A stretch of 64,000 bases of DNA from Flavivirga abyssicola (lineage in GTDB: Bacteria; Bacteroidota; Bacteroidia; Flavobacteriales; Flavobacteriaceae): assembly GCF_030540775.2 (NCBI RefSeq), contig NZ_CP141266.1, positions 647,501 to 711,500 of the forward strand. The letters run 5' to 3'. The position numbers were made by a program, and so were the translations under genes. The notes beneath the pieces were generated by a model. The model had not been told where the DNA came from and did no database searches. It saw only the letters and a program-made list of their open reading frames with translations. This document shows positions 12,182-61,961 of the stretch, in pieces. Position 1 is the stretch's first letter, and each line of letters begins with the position of its first letter.

Positions 12182-12210
12182 AACTGCCTTTTAAGGCAGT
12201 TTCTTTTTTT
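12182..12210 (+). terminator. Inward-facing terminator at the IS left end
   Basis: AACTGCCTT-TT-AAGGCAGTT followed by TTCTTTTTTT on the plus strand. It would stop transcripts entering from the orphan gene antisense to the transposase. The T-run overlaps the 3' end of the transposase gene. Confidence 0.7.
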
Positions 12211-13787
12211 AGATTGCTTTATAATCAGCTATTTTAAGGTTCCTTAAAAACAACTTTTCGAGCTTATACACAGTATTTTTTACTAAAAATAATAAAGCAA
12301 GCATTCCTGCTCCACTTTTCACTCTTTTTTGGGTGAATTTCAGATACTTTTTCAGGTTATAAGCAATGGCTGATAGGTGCATTACTTTGTTTGCCTGTTT
12401 TATTCCCAAGGTATTTATTTTTCGAAGCCCAAGAAACTGGGTAAGCGTTCCAAATACAGGTTCTACCGTACTTTGTCGTTTGCTTTTCATGTAACCTCCC
12501 CTGGCACTGTTTACTCGCACGTTATTACCTTCATACTCTTCACGATAAAAGGTCACCGTAAATTTCTTCTCCTGAGCAGATTTACCTAAACATTGCGATC
12601 GTATTGGACAATCGACACAAACATGTTTCAATGCTCTATATTCCTTCTTCTTGGTATTATTCTTTTTCTCAAAAAACACCTTTTTAAAAGGGATAATTTT
12701 TCCTTGTGAACAGGTATAATGATCCTTCTCTTTATGATACTCGAACCCTTCAGGTCCGCCTTTGTAAGTGCCATGAGGCGCAATATAACTCCGTAACCCC
12801 TTTGTTTCTAAAAAAGCATAGTTCTCACTACTACTATAGCCTGTATCTGCTATACAGTTATGCCATATCAAGCCCTGTTTATGCAAACGTTTTTCTAAAC
12901 GGTTACAGATATCGGGTAAATACTGACTGTCTTTTCCATATGCATGATATGCCTTTATATCTGTAATTACATGGTGAGCAGTGTCTACACTTAATTGACT
13001 CATATAATTAAGCTTTATTGCCTTGTCTGGTTTTACGCTTATTCGTGCATCGGGATCCGTAGGACTATAATGGGTTTTGTTTGATGTATGTTTAGAGCCT
13101 TTATTGCCTGCGCCTGGACGCTGGTCTTGGTCTTTACGCCATTTTTTGTTTCTGCTTTTTATGGCTTGCAACCCACTTTCGCTAGCACTTATTTCTTGTT
13201 GTGATTTAGAAGCTTTATTCAATTTTGATTGTCGTATAGGAACTCTTTCTTTATCCATAGTACTAATATGACGGAGACGATGTAAGTGCTTCTCTAAATC
13301 TTCCTTGGGTACTTTCAGTTCTAAAGTATCCATAGAAGCATTCGCCTTTATGGGGGCGGAATCTATAGCTTGCGCATGACCGCTTACCATTCCTTTATCT
13401 ACACACATAACAAGTACTCTAGTAAAAACGTCTTCAAATACGCGTTCTGGATACAACTGCCGCGTTCCCAATAGTGGAATGCCAGGGCAGCTCCTCGTCT
13501 ATATCATAGCCTAAAATATACAGGATATCCAAGCTCATACTACTATGCTCTATCAATTGTCTATCTCTAATGATGTTTTCCAAATAACCCACCAAACACA
13601 ACTTAAAGAAAACCACGGGATCGATACTCTTTTGTCCGCTTGATCCATAATATGGCTTGGTTATTGGATATAAAAAGTCCAAATCTAGAACTTCTTTTAA
13701 TCTTCTATAAAAGTTGTGATCAGGAACACGCTCGCTCAACTGGAATTGAGAAAATAATTTCTCTTGATAATCTTTCTTCCCTTGCAT
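12209..13787 (-). pseudogene. Frameshifted IS1182-family transposase
   Basis: The N-terminal part (13787 down to about 13460) carries the DUF772-type region ending in LPWHSTI. The C-terminal part (from about 13470 down to 12209) resumes at TRQLYPERVFEDVF and contains the DDE catalytic region and a cysteine cluster (HVCVDCPIRSQCLG). The family reads STIxRTRQLYP continuously. Here the bases between ATT and ACG are 4 rather than 6, so the two halves are in different frames. Members of this family use a single frame, so this is damage rather than programmed shifting. ATG 13787 is preferred because an upstream extension to 13838 runs out through the terminal inverted repeat. Confidence 0.85.
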
Positions 13788-17103: not shown

Positions 17104-18378
17104 ATGCATAAAGCAACTTTAGATTACGCAAAGCAACAAGATGAGTTTGATGAACTTTCTATTTACCGCCATCAATTTCATATCCCAACAGATAAACATG
17201 GGAATGAACTGATTTATATGACCGGGAACTCACTTGGGCTTCAACCTAAACACACTAAAGCATATATAAATCAAGAACTGGAAGATTGGGCTAATTTAGG
17301 TGTAGAAGGTCACACCGAGGCTAAAAACCCTTGGCTACCATATCATGAGTTTTTAACTGAAAGCATGGCAAACGTAGTCGGTGCAAAACCTATTGAAGTT
17401 GTTACTATGAATACGTTAACTGCTAACCTTCATTTTATGATGGTATCTTTCTATAAACCAACAAAAACACGTTATAAAATAATTATTGAAAGTGATGCTT
17501 TTCCATCAGACAAATATGCCGTAGAGTCACAATTACGACATCATGGTTTCGATGACAAAGCTGATTTAATTCTATGGAAACCAAGAAAAAATGAAGACCT
17601 GTTACATTATGAAGATTTAGAAGCTATTCTGGAAAAGCATGGCAGTGAGGTAGCTCTAGTAATGATTGGTGGTGTCAATTATTATACAGGTCAGTATTTT
17701 AATTTAAAGCGCATCACAGAACTTGGCCACAAACATGGCGCTATGGTTGGATTTGATTGTGCTCATGGTGCTGGAAATGTAGAGCTTAATCTACATGATT
17801 CCGGAGCAGATTTTGCTGTTTGGTGCACTTATAAATATCTAAATTCTGGCCCAGGAAGTTTAGCTGGTTGTTTTGTGCATGAAAGGCATGCATACAACAA
17901 AGACTTAAATCGTTTTACAGGTTGGTGGAGCCATAATAAACAAACTCGTTTTAACATGCGGCATGAATTTGATGTACTACCGGGAGCCGAAGGGTGGCAA
18001 CTTAGCAATCCCCCTATATTATCAATGGCAGCTATAAAGGCTTCTTTAGACATTTTTAATAAAATTGGTATCAAGAAATTAACAGAGAAATCTAAAAAAC
18101 TAACGGGTTATTTTGAGTTTTTACTAAAACAATTAGGAGAAGATACTATTAAGATAATAACGCCTGAGAATCCAGAAGAACGTGGTTGCCAATTATCTAT
18201 ACAAGTTTTAAATGCCAACAAAGCATTACATCATAAATTAACAGCAGCAGGTGTAATAAGTGATTGGAGAGAACCCGATGTAATTCGTTGCGCACCTACG
18301 CCTCTTTATAATTCATTTCAGGATGTTTACTATATGGTTGATAAATTGAAAGACATGTTAAAAAGTGAAATTGAGTAA
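17104..18378 (+). CDS. kynU: Kynureninase
   Basis: PLP-dependent hydrolase that cleaves kynurenine or 3-hydroxykynurenine to (3-hydroxy)anthranilate plus alanine. 424 residues. The PLP lysine is K244 in WCTYKYLNSGPGS, and the family motifs MTGNSLGLQPK, GFDCAHGAGN and GWWSHN are present. It is the first gene of the cluster, directly behind the promoter and operators. The next intact gene is kmo, 540 nt downstream; the gap is filled by a disrupted small gene and a palindromic element. Confidence 0.96.
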   Translation: MHKATLDYAKQQDEFDELSIYRHQFHIPTDKHGNELIYMTGNSLGLQPKHTKAYINQELEDWANLGVEGHTEAKNPWLPYHEFLTESMANVVGAKPIEVVTMNTLTANLHFMMVSFYKPTKTRYKIIIESDAFPSDKYAVESQLRHHGFDDKADLILWKPRKNEDLLHYEDLEAILEKHGSEVALVMIGGVNYYTGQYFNLKRITELGHKHGAMVGFDCAHGAGNVELNLHDSGADFAVWCTYKYLNSGPGSLAGCFVHERHAYNKDLNRFTGWWSHNKQTRFNMRHEFDVLPGAEGWQLSNPPILSMAAIKASLDIFNKIGIKKLTEKSKKLTGYFEFLLKQLGEDTIKIITPENPEERGCQLSIQVLNANKALHHKLTAAGVISDWREPDVIRCAPTPLYNSFQDVYYMVDKLKDMLKSEIE

Positions 18379-18405: not shown

Positions 18406-18884
18406 ATGATAAAAAAAGTGTCCGAATATAATTTTTCAGAGCCGTTATTATCGTCAGACACATCATTTTTAGGCATTCTATTTTTTTTGAAACGTAAAAA
18501 ATTTAATTATTTAATAATTACAAAAGCGAGAATATTATACATTGAACTCCTTTAGACTTTTTGGATTTAAGCGAAAATTAGAAGTTTTTGCCTCTGTTGA
18601 AGACTTTTTTGAGTTGCATAGCAGAGCTACGGAAGGAAAAAAAGACAAAAACAGAGCTGAAAACAGCAATTTTTTAGCTAATTGAAAAAAGTCTAAATGA
18701 GTTCATTATTAGAAATAAGGTTATAAAGAGTACATCTTATCATTATGACTTTAAAATTAGTTTTAATTCTAAGAAAAACAGGATTGAATTTTATAATAAT
18801 AAACAAAAAAAAGAATATATTGACTTACATGATTTCAAGATTACCCTTAACGAAATTCAACAAATAAAAAGTGTATTAAACTAA
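18406..18884 (+). pseudogene. Small gene split by a MITE-like element
   Basis: From ATG 18406, 46 codons run to 18543 and then enter the palindromic element, where the frame stops at TAG 18553-18555. After the element, an open frame resumes at 18708 and continues for 58 codons to TAA 18882-18884. Removing exactly the element plus one ATT repeat (18544-18707, 164 bp, not a multiple of three) joins the two into an uninterrupted 104-codon frame. The product would start MIKKVSEYNFSEPLL and end NEIQQIKSVLN, with a hydrophobic stretch near residues 21-46. No family is recognised; it is loosely reminiscent of small PH-like membrane proteins. Confidence 0.8.
18544..18704. mobile_element. MITE-like palindromic element, copy 1
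   Basis: 161 bp. Terminal inverted repeats are GAACTCCTTTAGACTTTTT at the left and, on the minus strand of the right end, GAACTCATTTAGACTTTTT (18 of 19 identical). The interior is also imperfectly palindromic about a centre near GCATAGCAGAGCTACGG, so the whole unit can fold into one long hairpin. It is flanked by ATT on both sides (18541-18543 and 18705-18707). There is no coding capacity for a transposase, so it would need one supplied in trans. Confidence 0.85.
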
Positions 18885-18918: not shown

Positions 18919-20334
18919 ATGAAAAAACAACAGAATATACTCATTATAGGTGCTGGATTATGTGGTTCTCTTTTAGCTTTGCGTTTAGGCCAGAGAGGCT
19001 ACAATGTATCGGTGTACGAAATGCGTCCAGACTTACGTAAGGTAGATATTAGTGCTGGTCGATCTATAAATTTGGCATTTTCAAATCGTGGTAATAAAGC
19101 CATGAGACTGGTTGGTATAGAAGATAAAGTAAAAACACTTTGCATTCCTATGAATGGACGTATGATTCATGATAAGGAAGGTAACACGTTTTTATCAAAT
19201 TATAGCGGTCGTGACCATGAATACATAAACTCCATTTCTCGTGGCGGACTCAACGCATTGCTTTTAGACGAAGCTGAAAAGCACGAAAATGTTTCCATTT
19301 ATTTCAATAAAAAATGTAAATCGGTTGATTTTAAAAAAACAACCGCATTATTTAAAGATTACGAAACAAAATCAGAGTTCATAGAAGATGCCGATGCTAT
19401 CATCGCAACAGATGGCGCAGGTTCTGCAATGCGTAAAAGTTACTATTTAGCCAAAAAATTCCTATTTAGTTTTTCTCAAGATTACTTAACACACGGTTAC
19501 AAAGAATTAAGCATACTACCAACTCAAACTGGTGATTATAAAACTTATAAAAATGCATTGCACATATGGCCTCGTGGTTCTTTTATGCTTATTGCGTTAC
19601 CAAATTTGGATGGTAGTTTTACAGTCACTTTATTTTTAAGTTATGGTGACGGCACATACAATTTCAATAATTTAACAACTCCTGAAATCGTTTCGGAGTT
19701 CTTTCAAAAAGAATTTCCCGATGCTTTAGAACTCATGCCTAATCTTGTTGAAGATTTCTTTAATAACCCAACGGCACCGTTAGGCACAGTAAAATGTTCG
19801 CCTTGGCATTATAAGGGGAATACCTTATTAATGGGAGACTCAGCACATGCTATTGTACCATTTTACGGTCAAGGCATGAATGCGTCTTTTGAAGATGTTG
19901 TTGAATTTGATGCTGTATTAGATCAGAATTTAGAAAACTGGGAAGCTGTATTCAAGGCTTATGAATCTACCCGTAAAAAAGACACCGATGCTATTGCAGA
20001 TTTGGCAATAGATAACTTTCATGAAATGAAAGATCATGTAGCCAATCCTATATTTCAGGAAAAGCGTAAATTAGAAATGGCTTTAGAGCAAAACTTTCCA
20101 GATGAGTATTCATCAAAGTATTCTTTGGTTACCTTTAATGAAAGGATTGGTTACCATGAAGCCATGACAAGAGGTCGCGCACAAGACAAGGCCATTTTAA
20201 ACATGATAGCAAATAAGGACATCTCGGCTGTACTCAATATGACAAAAAATGAATTAAAGCAGGCCTTAAAAAAAGTTCAACAAGAAACCAATGATATTCT
20301 TGAAGATGATAGAATTGCTGGATTAAAACAATAA
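18919..20334 (+). CDS. kmo: Kynurenine 3-monooxygenase
   Basis: FAD-dependent hydroxylase converting kynurenine to 3-hydroxykynurenine. 471 residues. The Rossmann motif GAGLCG is at residues 11-16 and the second FAD motif is LMGDSAHAIVPFYGQGMNA. The substrate-region motifs (SAGRSINLAFSNRG) and the C-terminal hydrophobic region are those of bacterial KMO. The start at 18919 is chosen over an out-of-frame ATG at 18911. With KynU it yields 3-hydroxyanthranilate, the substrate of the dioxygenase further down the cluster. Confidence 0.96.
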   Translation: MKKQQNILIIGAGLCGSLLALRLGQRGYNVSVYEMRPDLRKVDISAGRSINLAFSNRGNKAMRLVGIEDKVKTLCIPMNGRMIHDKEGNTFLSNYSGRDHEYINSISRGGLNALLLDEAEKHENVSIYFNKKCKSVDFKKTTALFKDYETKSEFIEDADAIIATDGAGSAMRKSYYLAKKFLFSFSQDYLTHGYKELSILPTQTGDYKTYKNALHIWPRGSFMLIALPNLDGSFTVTLFLSYGDGTYNFNNLTTPEIVSEFFQKEFPDALELMPNLVEDFFNNPTAPLGTVKCSPWHYKGNTLLMGDSAHAIVPFYGQGMNASFEDVVEFDAVLDQNLENWEAVFKAYESTRKKDTDAIADLAIDNFHEMKDHVANPIFQEKRKLEMALEQNFPDEYSSKYSLVTFNERIGYHEAMTRGRAQDKAILNMIANKDISAVLNMTKNELKQALKKVQQETNDILEDDRIAGLKQ

Positions 20335-20341
20335 TTATGAG

Positions 20342-20361
20342 ATTCCTGCCTACGCAGGAAT
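20342..20361. repeat. Dispersed hairpin repeat, ATTCCTGC family
   Basis: ATTCCTGC-CTAC-GCAGGAAT, an 8-bp stem with a 4-nt loop, between kmo and the RidA gene. The same hairpin with loop CTTC is at 61942-61961, and an expanded one is at 61051-61093. Confidence 0.7.
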
Positions 20362-20787: not shown

Positions 20788-21139
20788 ATGTCTCCTCAAG
20801 CGCAGAGAGAGGTTTATAATGAAAACTATTATGTTTATATATTAAAATGCAGCGATGGTCTAACTTATACGGGAGTTACAAATAATTTATCAAGACGTTT
20901 TGAAGAACATCAAGAAGGAAAAAATAAAAATTGTTTCACATTTAAAAGAAGACCATTATCTCTAATTTTTCATCAAGAATTTAATGATATAAACCAAGCT
21001 ATCTATTTTGAAAAAAAAAATTAAAAATTGGAGTGCAAAGAAAAAATTAGCTTTAGCTGACGAAAATTTTGATATGTTACAAATTTTAGCTGAATGTAGA
21101 AATGCAACACATTCAAAGTATAATCCAGAAGAAAATTAA
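20788..21139 (+). pseudogene. GIY-YIG nuclease-domain protein with poly-A frameshift
   Basis: The first frame (20788-21024) encodes a GIY-YIG domain start (YYVYILKCSDGLTYTGVTNN, RRFEEHQEG) and stops just after IYFEKK. The shifted frame continues as IKNWSAKKKLALADENF to a stop at 21137-21139, which is the normal family ending. The shift falls in a run of ten A (21011-21020); nine would restore one ~116-residue frame. It could be a true pseudogene, transcriptional slippage on the A-run, or a sequencing error. The first codons overlap a degenerate GCGCAG repeat and another copy lies right after the stop, so the gene is bracketed by repeats. Confidence 0.8.
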
Positions 21140-21140
21140 G

Positions 21141-21163
21141 GTCTCGACTGCGCTCGATCAGAC
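21141..21163 (-). repeat. Dispersed palindromic repeat, GCGCAGTCGA family (inverted)
   Basis: On the minus strand it reads GTCTGATCGAGCGCAGTCG followed by AGAC, closely matching the copy at 8043-8062 with a small insertion. It sits between the GIY-YIG frame and the aldehyde dehydrogenase start. Confidence 0.65.
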
Positions 21164-31988: not shown

Positions 31989-32011
31989 GAACTCATCTTG
32001 ACTTTTTCTAT
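31989..32011 (+). repeat. Solo end of the MITE-like element
   Basis: GAACTCATCTTGACTTTTT followed by CTAT is nearly identical to the right-end sequence of copy 2. No partner arm lies within 200 bp on either side, so this is a truncated remnant in the DUF6702 upstream region. Confidence 0.6.
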
Positions 32012-36041: not shown

Positions 36042-36201
36042 GAACTCCTCTTGGCTTTTTCTATTTCCTAAAAAATGGCTAAAATTCGCTCATATTTTGT
36101 TACTTTTATTATGCTTAGCACTGCTATGCCTTGCAAAAAAAGCCTCATCTGAACAAATGTTATCTCATTTTCGGTTAAATACAAAAAGTCAAGATGAGTT
36201 C
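36042..36201. mobile_element. MITE-like palindromic element, copy 2
   Basis: 160 bp between the GNAT and M48 genes. Left end GAACTCCTCTTGGCTTTTT; right end on the minus strand GAACTCATCTTGACTTTTT. The centre holds TTAGCACTGCTATGCCTTGC, the counterpart of the copy-1 centre on the opposite strand. It is flanked by ATA on both sides (36039-36041 and 36202-36204). The rest of this 344-nt gap (35986-36329) is AT-rich with no gene. Confidence 0.85.
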
Positions 36202-61941: not shown

Positions 61942-61961
61942 ATTCCTGCCTTCGCAGGAAT
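61942..61961. repeat. Dispersed hairpin repeat, ATTCCTGC family
   Basis: ATTCCTGC-CTTC-GCAGGAAT followed by TTTTG. It is identical in its stem to the copy at 20342-20361 and, with the short T-run, could also act as a weak terminator. Confidence 0.7.

Follow-up and report, generated by a model that had tools for sequence, protein, structure and literature searches.

The window analysed here is a 64,000-nucleotide stretch of the Flavivirga abyssicola genome (contig NZ_CP141266.1, positions 647,501 to 711,500 of the forward strand). In its kynurenine operon, between kynU and kmo, a small gene is interrupted by a 161-bp palindromic mobile element. The features assigned to this locus are as follows, with the basis of each assignment in brackets.

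17104-18378, + strand: kynU, kynureninase (Pfam KYNU_C and Aminotran_5)
18406-18543, + strand: 5' fragment of the interrupted small gene, 46 codons (aligns with the intact gene of congener G006)
18541-18543, no strand: left target-site copy, ATT (sequence, empty-site comparison, duplication count)
18544-18704, + strand: 161-bp palindromic mobile element (folds better on the + strand)
18544-18562, + strand: left terminal inverted repeat (end pattern)
18616-18632, + strand: hairpin apex GCATAGCAGAGCTACGG (GCATAGCAnnGCTA in most of 42 aligned elements)
18686-18704, - strand: right terminal inverted repeat (end pattern)
18705-18707, no strand: right target-site copy, ATT (sequence, empty-site comparison, duplication count)
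18705-18884, + strand: 3' fragment of the interrupted small gene, through its stop (frame, alignment with G006)
18919-20334, + strand: kmo, kynurenine 3-monooxygenase-like FAD protein (Pfam FAD_binding_3; the name kmo is taken from the neighbourhood)

An earlier sequence-only reading had claimed a palindromic insertion of 161 bp at this place, and the insertion was confirmed at 18544-18704 with ATT on both flanks. The inverted ends that it described are present, with GAACTCCTTTAGACTTTTT running from 18544 and the reverse complement of GAACTCATTTAGACTTTTT extending up to 18704. Its claim that the frame is restored by removing 164 bp (the element plus one ATT) was reproduced by scripted joining, which gave a single open reading frame with its ATG at 18406 and its stop at 18884. 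It had proposed to look in relatives for an uninterrupted 104-codon gene, and when the joined protein was searched in 60 of them, the intact gene was indeed found beside kmo in 6 of the 11 congeners (G002, G003, G004, G006, G008 and G011). In G006, apparently Flavivirga rizhaonensis, its protein is 98% identical to the joined frame and the empty site is exact (...ATACATT/ATTAG..., the slash marking the junction), while only the two fragments were recovered from the own genome. This empty site and the 3-bp repeats at other copies bear out the proposal of a recent transposition with a 3-bp target duplication; neither of the outcomes named beforehand as speaking against it, relatives with the element at this place and no intact homologue anywhere, or other copies without 3-bp repeats, was obtained. 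The insertion and the gene split in the Flavivirga window are established; for this conserved, unnamed operon gene the element supplies a clean natural knock-out.

The small gene is missing from four congeners (G001, G007, G009 and G010), in which kynU and kmo lie close together. Upstream of kmo in G005 (locus L120) it has apparently decayed independently, with the element absent. Considering its absence from four congeners and its decay in a fifth, the gene is therefore dispensable. Matches to it in two other genera were weak and contained stop codons, and no Pfam or NCBIfam model reached its cut-off on the small gene.

A dispersed family of short elements

The window element is an imperfect inverted repeat with arms of 80 nt each, 70% complementary and separated by 3 nt, and its inverted ends extend over 19 bp with one mismatch. 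It carries no transposase gene, the longest open reading frame almost wholly inside the 161 bp having 47 codons. Folding of the operon-sense strand gave -51.7 kcal/mol against a mean of -31.0 for shuffled sequences (z -5.9), and none of the 200 shuffles was as good.

BLAST searches of the own genome with the window element and the element at 36042-36201 as queries recovered two related subfamilies. A 19-base end pattern that spans both of them, with one mismatch tolerated, has 81 matches in the 4.68-Mb genome (41 forward and 40 reverse), against none for the reversed control. As the earlier reading had expected of other copies, an exact 3-bp duplication flanks 32 of the 38 two-ended copies; a 4-bp duplication was seen at none of the 38, and mispaired flanks agreed at 3 bp in 8.7% of cases. 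The triplets that are duplicated differ between copies and are rich in AT (ATA 6, ATT 5, ACT 5, AAT 4, and others). Two further features of the superfamily lie in the window.

31989-32007, + strand: solitary second-subfamily end, for which no partner was found (end pattern)
36042-36201, - strand: second superfamily element with ends GAACTCMTCTTGRC, flanked by ATA on both sides

The element at 36042-36201 also occurs in G006, and the aligned place is empty in G001, G002, G009, G010 and G011; in G007 the flanks stand 14 bp apart at a junction that is only partly aligned, and G003, G004, G005 and G008 were left out of this site comparison. Shorter forms of 47-113 bp carry a target duplication in 10 of 18 cases, so that the interior is perhaps unneeded for movement. 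Derivatives of 113 bp were noted at three loci (L025, L172 and L178), each with its own 3-bp duplication and all three duplications different. They fit a deletion between AGACTTTTT direct repeats and may have arisen in place. Of the features by which MITEs are recognised, terminal inverted repeats, a fixed-length duplication, short size without a transposase gene, dispersed copies and empty sites were found.

Within the genus, 10 of the 12 genomes (own included) match the window element at an E-value of 0.001. The ends vary across subfamilies, opening with GAACTC, GAAGTG, GAATTG or GAACTG, among others, ahead of a TTTAAACTTTTT-like stretch, yet left and right ends still match each other. A covariance model built from 42 representatives, applied with an E-value cut-off of 1e-5 to 14 candidates per genome, detected the superfamily in at least 32 of 199 Flavobacteriaceae genomes and at least 31 of 198 genera, nearly all matches listed being 158-162 bp long. 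Altogether at least 117 stretches were found by a pattern scan of the named genomes, and the genera among the matches listed include Maribacter, Flavobacterium, Aquimarina, Snuella, Croceivirga, Galbibacter, Lutibacter, Gelidibacter, Arenibacter and Aequorivita. In these 117 loci a right end lies no more than 300 bp away for 101 of the 120 left ends; 69 of the 101 paired-end elements have a 3-bp duplication, and 75 of the 101 are 160 or 161 bp long. One uncultured Flavobacteriaceae genome (L329) has two elements about 0.75 kb apart, flanking a single open reading frame that is presumably regulator-like.

Plasmid and phage collections gave no match to the element, and in Rfam only a tRNA in the window exceeded its threshold, with four sub-threshold matches near the element. 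No description of the element family was found in the open-access literature, a result that does not show the family to be unpublished; in PMC2267715, terms for flavobacteria or Bacteroidetes are absent.

The search for a parent transposase covered several sets of loci. Ends with an unusual next base enclosed no transposase between matching ends, and about 3 kb inward from each of 20 ends without an exact partner (among the matches listed) there was no transposase with element ends. Element-type ends were likewise not found around a transposase at the 80 named scan loci, nor around the transposase at DDE_Tnp_1 (PF01609) loci for 30 of the 40 matches. The transposase domain of ISAzo13, a family with GA ends, was detected in none of the 12 genus genomes (own included), a search in which the controls were equally silent. 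Two apparent long end pairs, of 1075 and 1217 bp, were rejected, as they looked like a neighbouring second element and a chance match. The window has a 420-codon open reading frame at 12209-13471 on the - strand that matches DDE_Tnp_1 with an E-value of 1e-9 and has no element-like inverted ends around it.

Hairpin covariation, strand and gene context

Analysis of 42 sequences with RNAalifold gave a consensus structure of 45 pairs, 23 of which show double changes that keep the pair. In this alignment 95.4% of the cells are paired, compared with 44-57% in controls with the partner slid 1 to 3 columns along, and double-change cells number 216 against a shuffle mean of 67; in the apical helix, 96.2% of cells are paired. 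Placing the changes on a tree gave 34 double pair-keeping events for the 28 pairs of the inner stem, 17 of them on internal branches, where slid versions gave 0 to 4 events in total. Of 53 pair-breaking events, 41 fall at the tips. These numbers are approximate, the tree and the event counts coming from the same data. Among 38 non-Flavivirga elements that lay outside the structure derivation, the inner stem is 93.3% paired versus 46-57% in slid controls, in a set chosen by the left-end pattern that favours conserved left ends. The 23 subfamily-2 copies of the own genome show 78 differences from their consensus; the interior has no double change and the outer stem a single one, and single interior changes break pairs in 25 cases and keep them in 18. 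Recent copies thus decay almost freely, while the differences between subfamilies preserve the fold. These alignments give good support to a hairpin that is conserved through covariation, and the matched mutations across the family suggest that the fold itself matters.

Consensus folding favours the sense strand, with -27.5 kcal/mol compared to -17.9 for the opposite strand. Pairs predicted on the sense strand only contain 125 G-U versus 16 A-C cells, and the 19 pairs that both strands predict contain 19 versus 11. For the 38 other elements, G-U and A-C cells number 114 versus 8 in the inner stem and 22 versus 3 in the outer stem; after removal of the pairs that are usually G-U, the inner counts become 37 versus 8, or 10 versus 3 by pair (p 0.09). 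When single sequences were oriented by homology, the sense strand folded better in 60 of 60, by 11.8 kcal/mol on average, and in 84 of 85 in the scan loci; with DNA parameters it was favoured in 58 of 60. A sense-strand advantage of 7.0 kcal/mol persists, however, in dinucleotide shuffles of the same 60 sequences, with 60 of 60 shuffle means on that side; in 49 of 60 the real difference is larger than that of its shuffles. Over half of the strand difference (-7.0 of -11.8 kcal/mol) is therefore composition. In slid controls, too, G-U outnumbers A-C at most positions, by about 2 to 1 overall. We accordingly rejected as too strong a strand preference drawn from the 60 of 60 folding result and the G-U and A-C cells, since the shuffles and slid controls explain much of it.

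A replacement test, in which changes of Watson-Crick pairs were counted on the tree, is independent of composition if mutation is strand-symmetric. For the inner stem of 80 sequences it gave 55 changes to G-U versus 25 to A-C (p 0.001), divided into 20 versus 1 on internal branches and 35 versus 24 at the tips. The 42 sequences alone gave 31 versus 16 (internal branches 10 versus 2), and the 38 alone 19 versus 9 (p 0.09; internal branches 8 versus 0, tips 11 versus 9). In the outer stem the corresponding numbers are 26 and 12 for the 80 sequences, 15 and 8 for the 42, and 14 and 3 for the 38, all of these counts being inferred tree events in overlapping sets. Recent changes are nearly even and become one-sided where lineages kept multiplying, which is the expectation for selection on a one-strand fold; a preference for one strand is supported, less strongly than the covariation.

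With respect to neighbouring genes, the 78 Flavivirga elements comprise 45 in tandem sense, 11 in tandem antisense, 18 divergent and 4 convergent placements, according to simple open reading frame calls of at least 90 codons, a crude measure for which other limits give 44 to 12 and 43 to 11. Sense exceeds antisense both in the own genome (22 versus 3) and in the other Flavivirga (23 versus 8); the sense bias therefore repeats. It is weak at the named non-Flavivirga loci (21 versus 13, p 0.23), amounts to 29 versus 17 (p 0.10) at all 80 named loci, and to 16 versus 5 at the other 37 scan loci. Background intergenic regions of at least 30 bp comprise 223 tandem, 78 divergent and 52 convergent cases. 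A flavobacterial promoter consensus motif occurs in none of 60 elements; a sigma-70-like scan found 2 matches versus 3.8 expected from shuffles, and a terminator was not found.

Interpretation and comparison with known repeats

Bacterial MITE-like palindromes are usually read as remnants of insertion sequences, with the hairpin a consequence of the inverted ends. We consider it probable that the present element is a non-autonomous MITE-like transposon carrying a selected full-length hairpin, the term MITE being descriptive and denoting a candidate class. It is called MITE-like because of the exact 3-bp duplications, the matched subfamily-specific ends, the dispersed copies and the precise empty sites. 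A DDE-type transposase acting in trans would recognise the ends, and insertion would proceed through a 3-bp staggered cut. In the window, the element would have inserted into the 104-codon kynurenine operon gene, which is dispensable, once this lineage had separated from its nearest sampled relative. Besides its ends, the element carries a full-length hairpin that compensatory changes keep intact, with persisting lineages tolerating G-U and avoiding A-C on one strand. Transcribed from a neighbouring promoter, the sense strand may act as RNA, and its simplest role in that form would be a double-stranded processing or protecting structure that allows low-cost residence in operons. More tentatively, the element could be a mobile structured-RNA cassette, a family-wide transposon of near-fixed length in which the sense hairpin is the selected product, either because RNA processing lets operons tolerate insertions or because the folded strand has a role in transposition. 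The interior of the element evolves like a structured RNA in at least 31 of 198 sampled genera, with its length held near 160 bp, and this makes it testable whether the fold of such elements serves the element, the host or nothing.

The main rival explanation, which we regard as rather unlikely, is an ordinary MITE whose hairpin is a by-product of its palindromic origin, with template switching copying one arm onto the other and so generating compensatory changes without selection. This process has been proposed as both creator and maintainer of hairpins (PMC8794818), an inverted repeat over the full length offers it a natural substrate, and most of the stability difference between strands is compositional. 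However, template switching converts G-U to Watson-Crick pairs and gives no reason for 20 G-U versus 1 A-C on internal branches, and copying of arms is hard to reconcile with the recent subfamily-2 copies, whose only double change lies in the outer stem. Another possibility, and an improbable one, is that mobility depends on the folded sense strand, as a single-stranded DNA or RNA intermediate that is inserted with a 3-bp stagger. The one-strand bias on internal branches, a length near 160 bp across genera, the preference of DNA parameters for the sense strand in 58 of 60 (subject to the same composition caveat) and the failure to find a DNA parent in the loci examined would all agree with such an intermediate, but exact 3-bp duplications together with matched terminal repeats are the usual marks of double-stranded DDE transposition. 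Also at odds with it are the 113-bp forms, which lack much of one arm and have three duplications at three sites, with deletion in place as a possible explanation. Finally, we consider a domesticated regulatory RNA device, kept in operons by host selection, highly improbable: the excess of sense over antisense tandem pairs in Flavivirga (45 versus 11) points in that direction, but species differ in the copies they carry, several copies have decayed or been deleted, and one disrupts a gene.

The preferred reading, a MITE-like transposon with a selected hairpin, can be set beside several described systems. Prokaryotic MITEs are likewise short, lack a transposase gene and have terminal inverted repeats, direct repeats and stable stem-loop transcripts (PMC10969869); unlike them, the present family has no parental insertion sequence that we could find in the loci examined, keeps to about 160 bp across genera and has a hairpin conserved by covariation. 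The RUP, BOX and SPRITE elements of pneumococcus are also small hairpin repeats at dispersed sites, for which mobilisation in trans has been proposed, and are over-represented between convergent genes (PMC3049150), whereas convergent placement accounts for only 4 of 78 Flavivirga copies and 8 of 66 in the named scan loci, with a background of 52 of 353. In addition, RUP inserts at TA-containing sites (PMC2229807), and the element described here duplicates 3 bp. The YPAL/RU-2 repeat of Yersinia, about 168 bp long and palindromic, resembles it in having empty and filled sites between species and target duplications, but these duplications range from 3 to 26 bp and the inverted repeats are internal (PMC2229807), in contrast to 3 bp and terminal repeats here. 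ERIC and Correia/NEMIS are mobile palindromes whose RNA can alter transcript stability, in an orientation-dependent manner for ERIC, and are set apart by their description, which gives TA-type termini and other hosts (PMC2229807, PMC3049150). Neither the TA termini nor the TA target of the RUP, ERIC and Correia type was seen in our elements, which have GAA..TTC termini and varied triplets. The ISAzo13 family shares the 3-bp target duplications (PMC10045372). A MITE is also present in Cardinium, a Bacteroidota endosymbiont, where it derives from an identified IS982 parent (PMC9769881); no parent was found for the element here in the loci examined.

Three other sequences in the window were noted downstream of kmo. 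At 20788-21139, between RidA-like and aldehyde dehydrogenase genes, a small open reading frame, which we take to be GIY-YIG-like by its motif, is apparently split at an A-run, giving two overlapping frames. A short palindrome, ATTCCTGCCTACGCAGGAAT, occurs at 20342-20361 and 61942-61961 with no more than 3 mismatches, against 0 expected by shuffles, and looks like a separate short REP-type repeat. The palindrome CTCGACTGCGCTCGA at 21143-21157, present in one copy with 0 expected, resembles another type of short extragenic palindrome.
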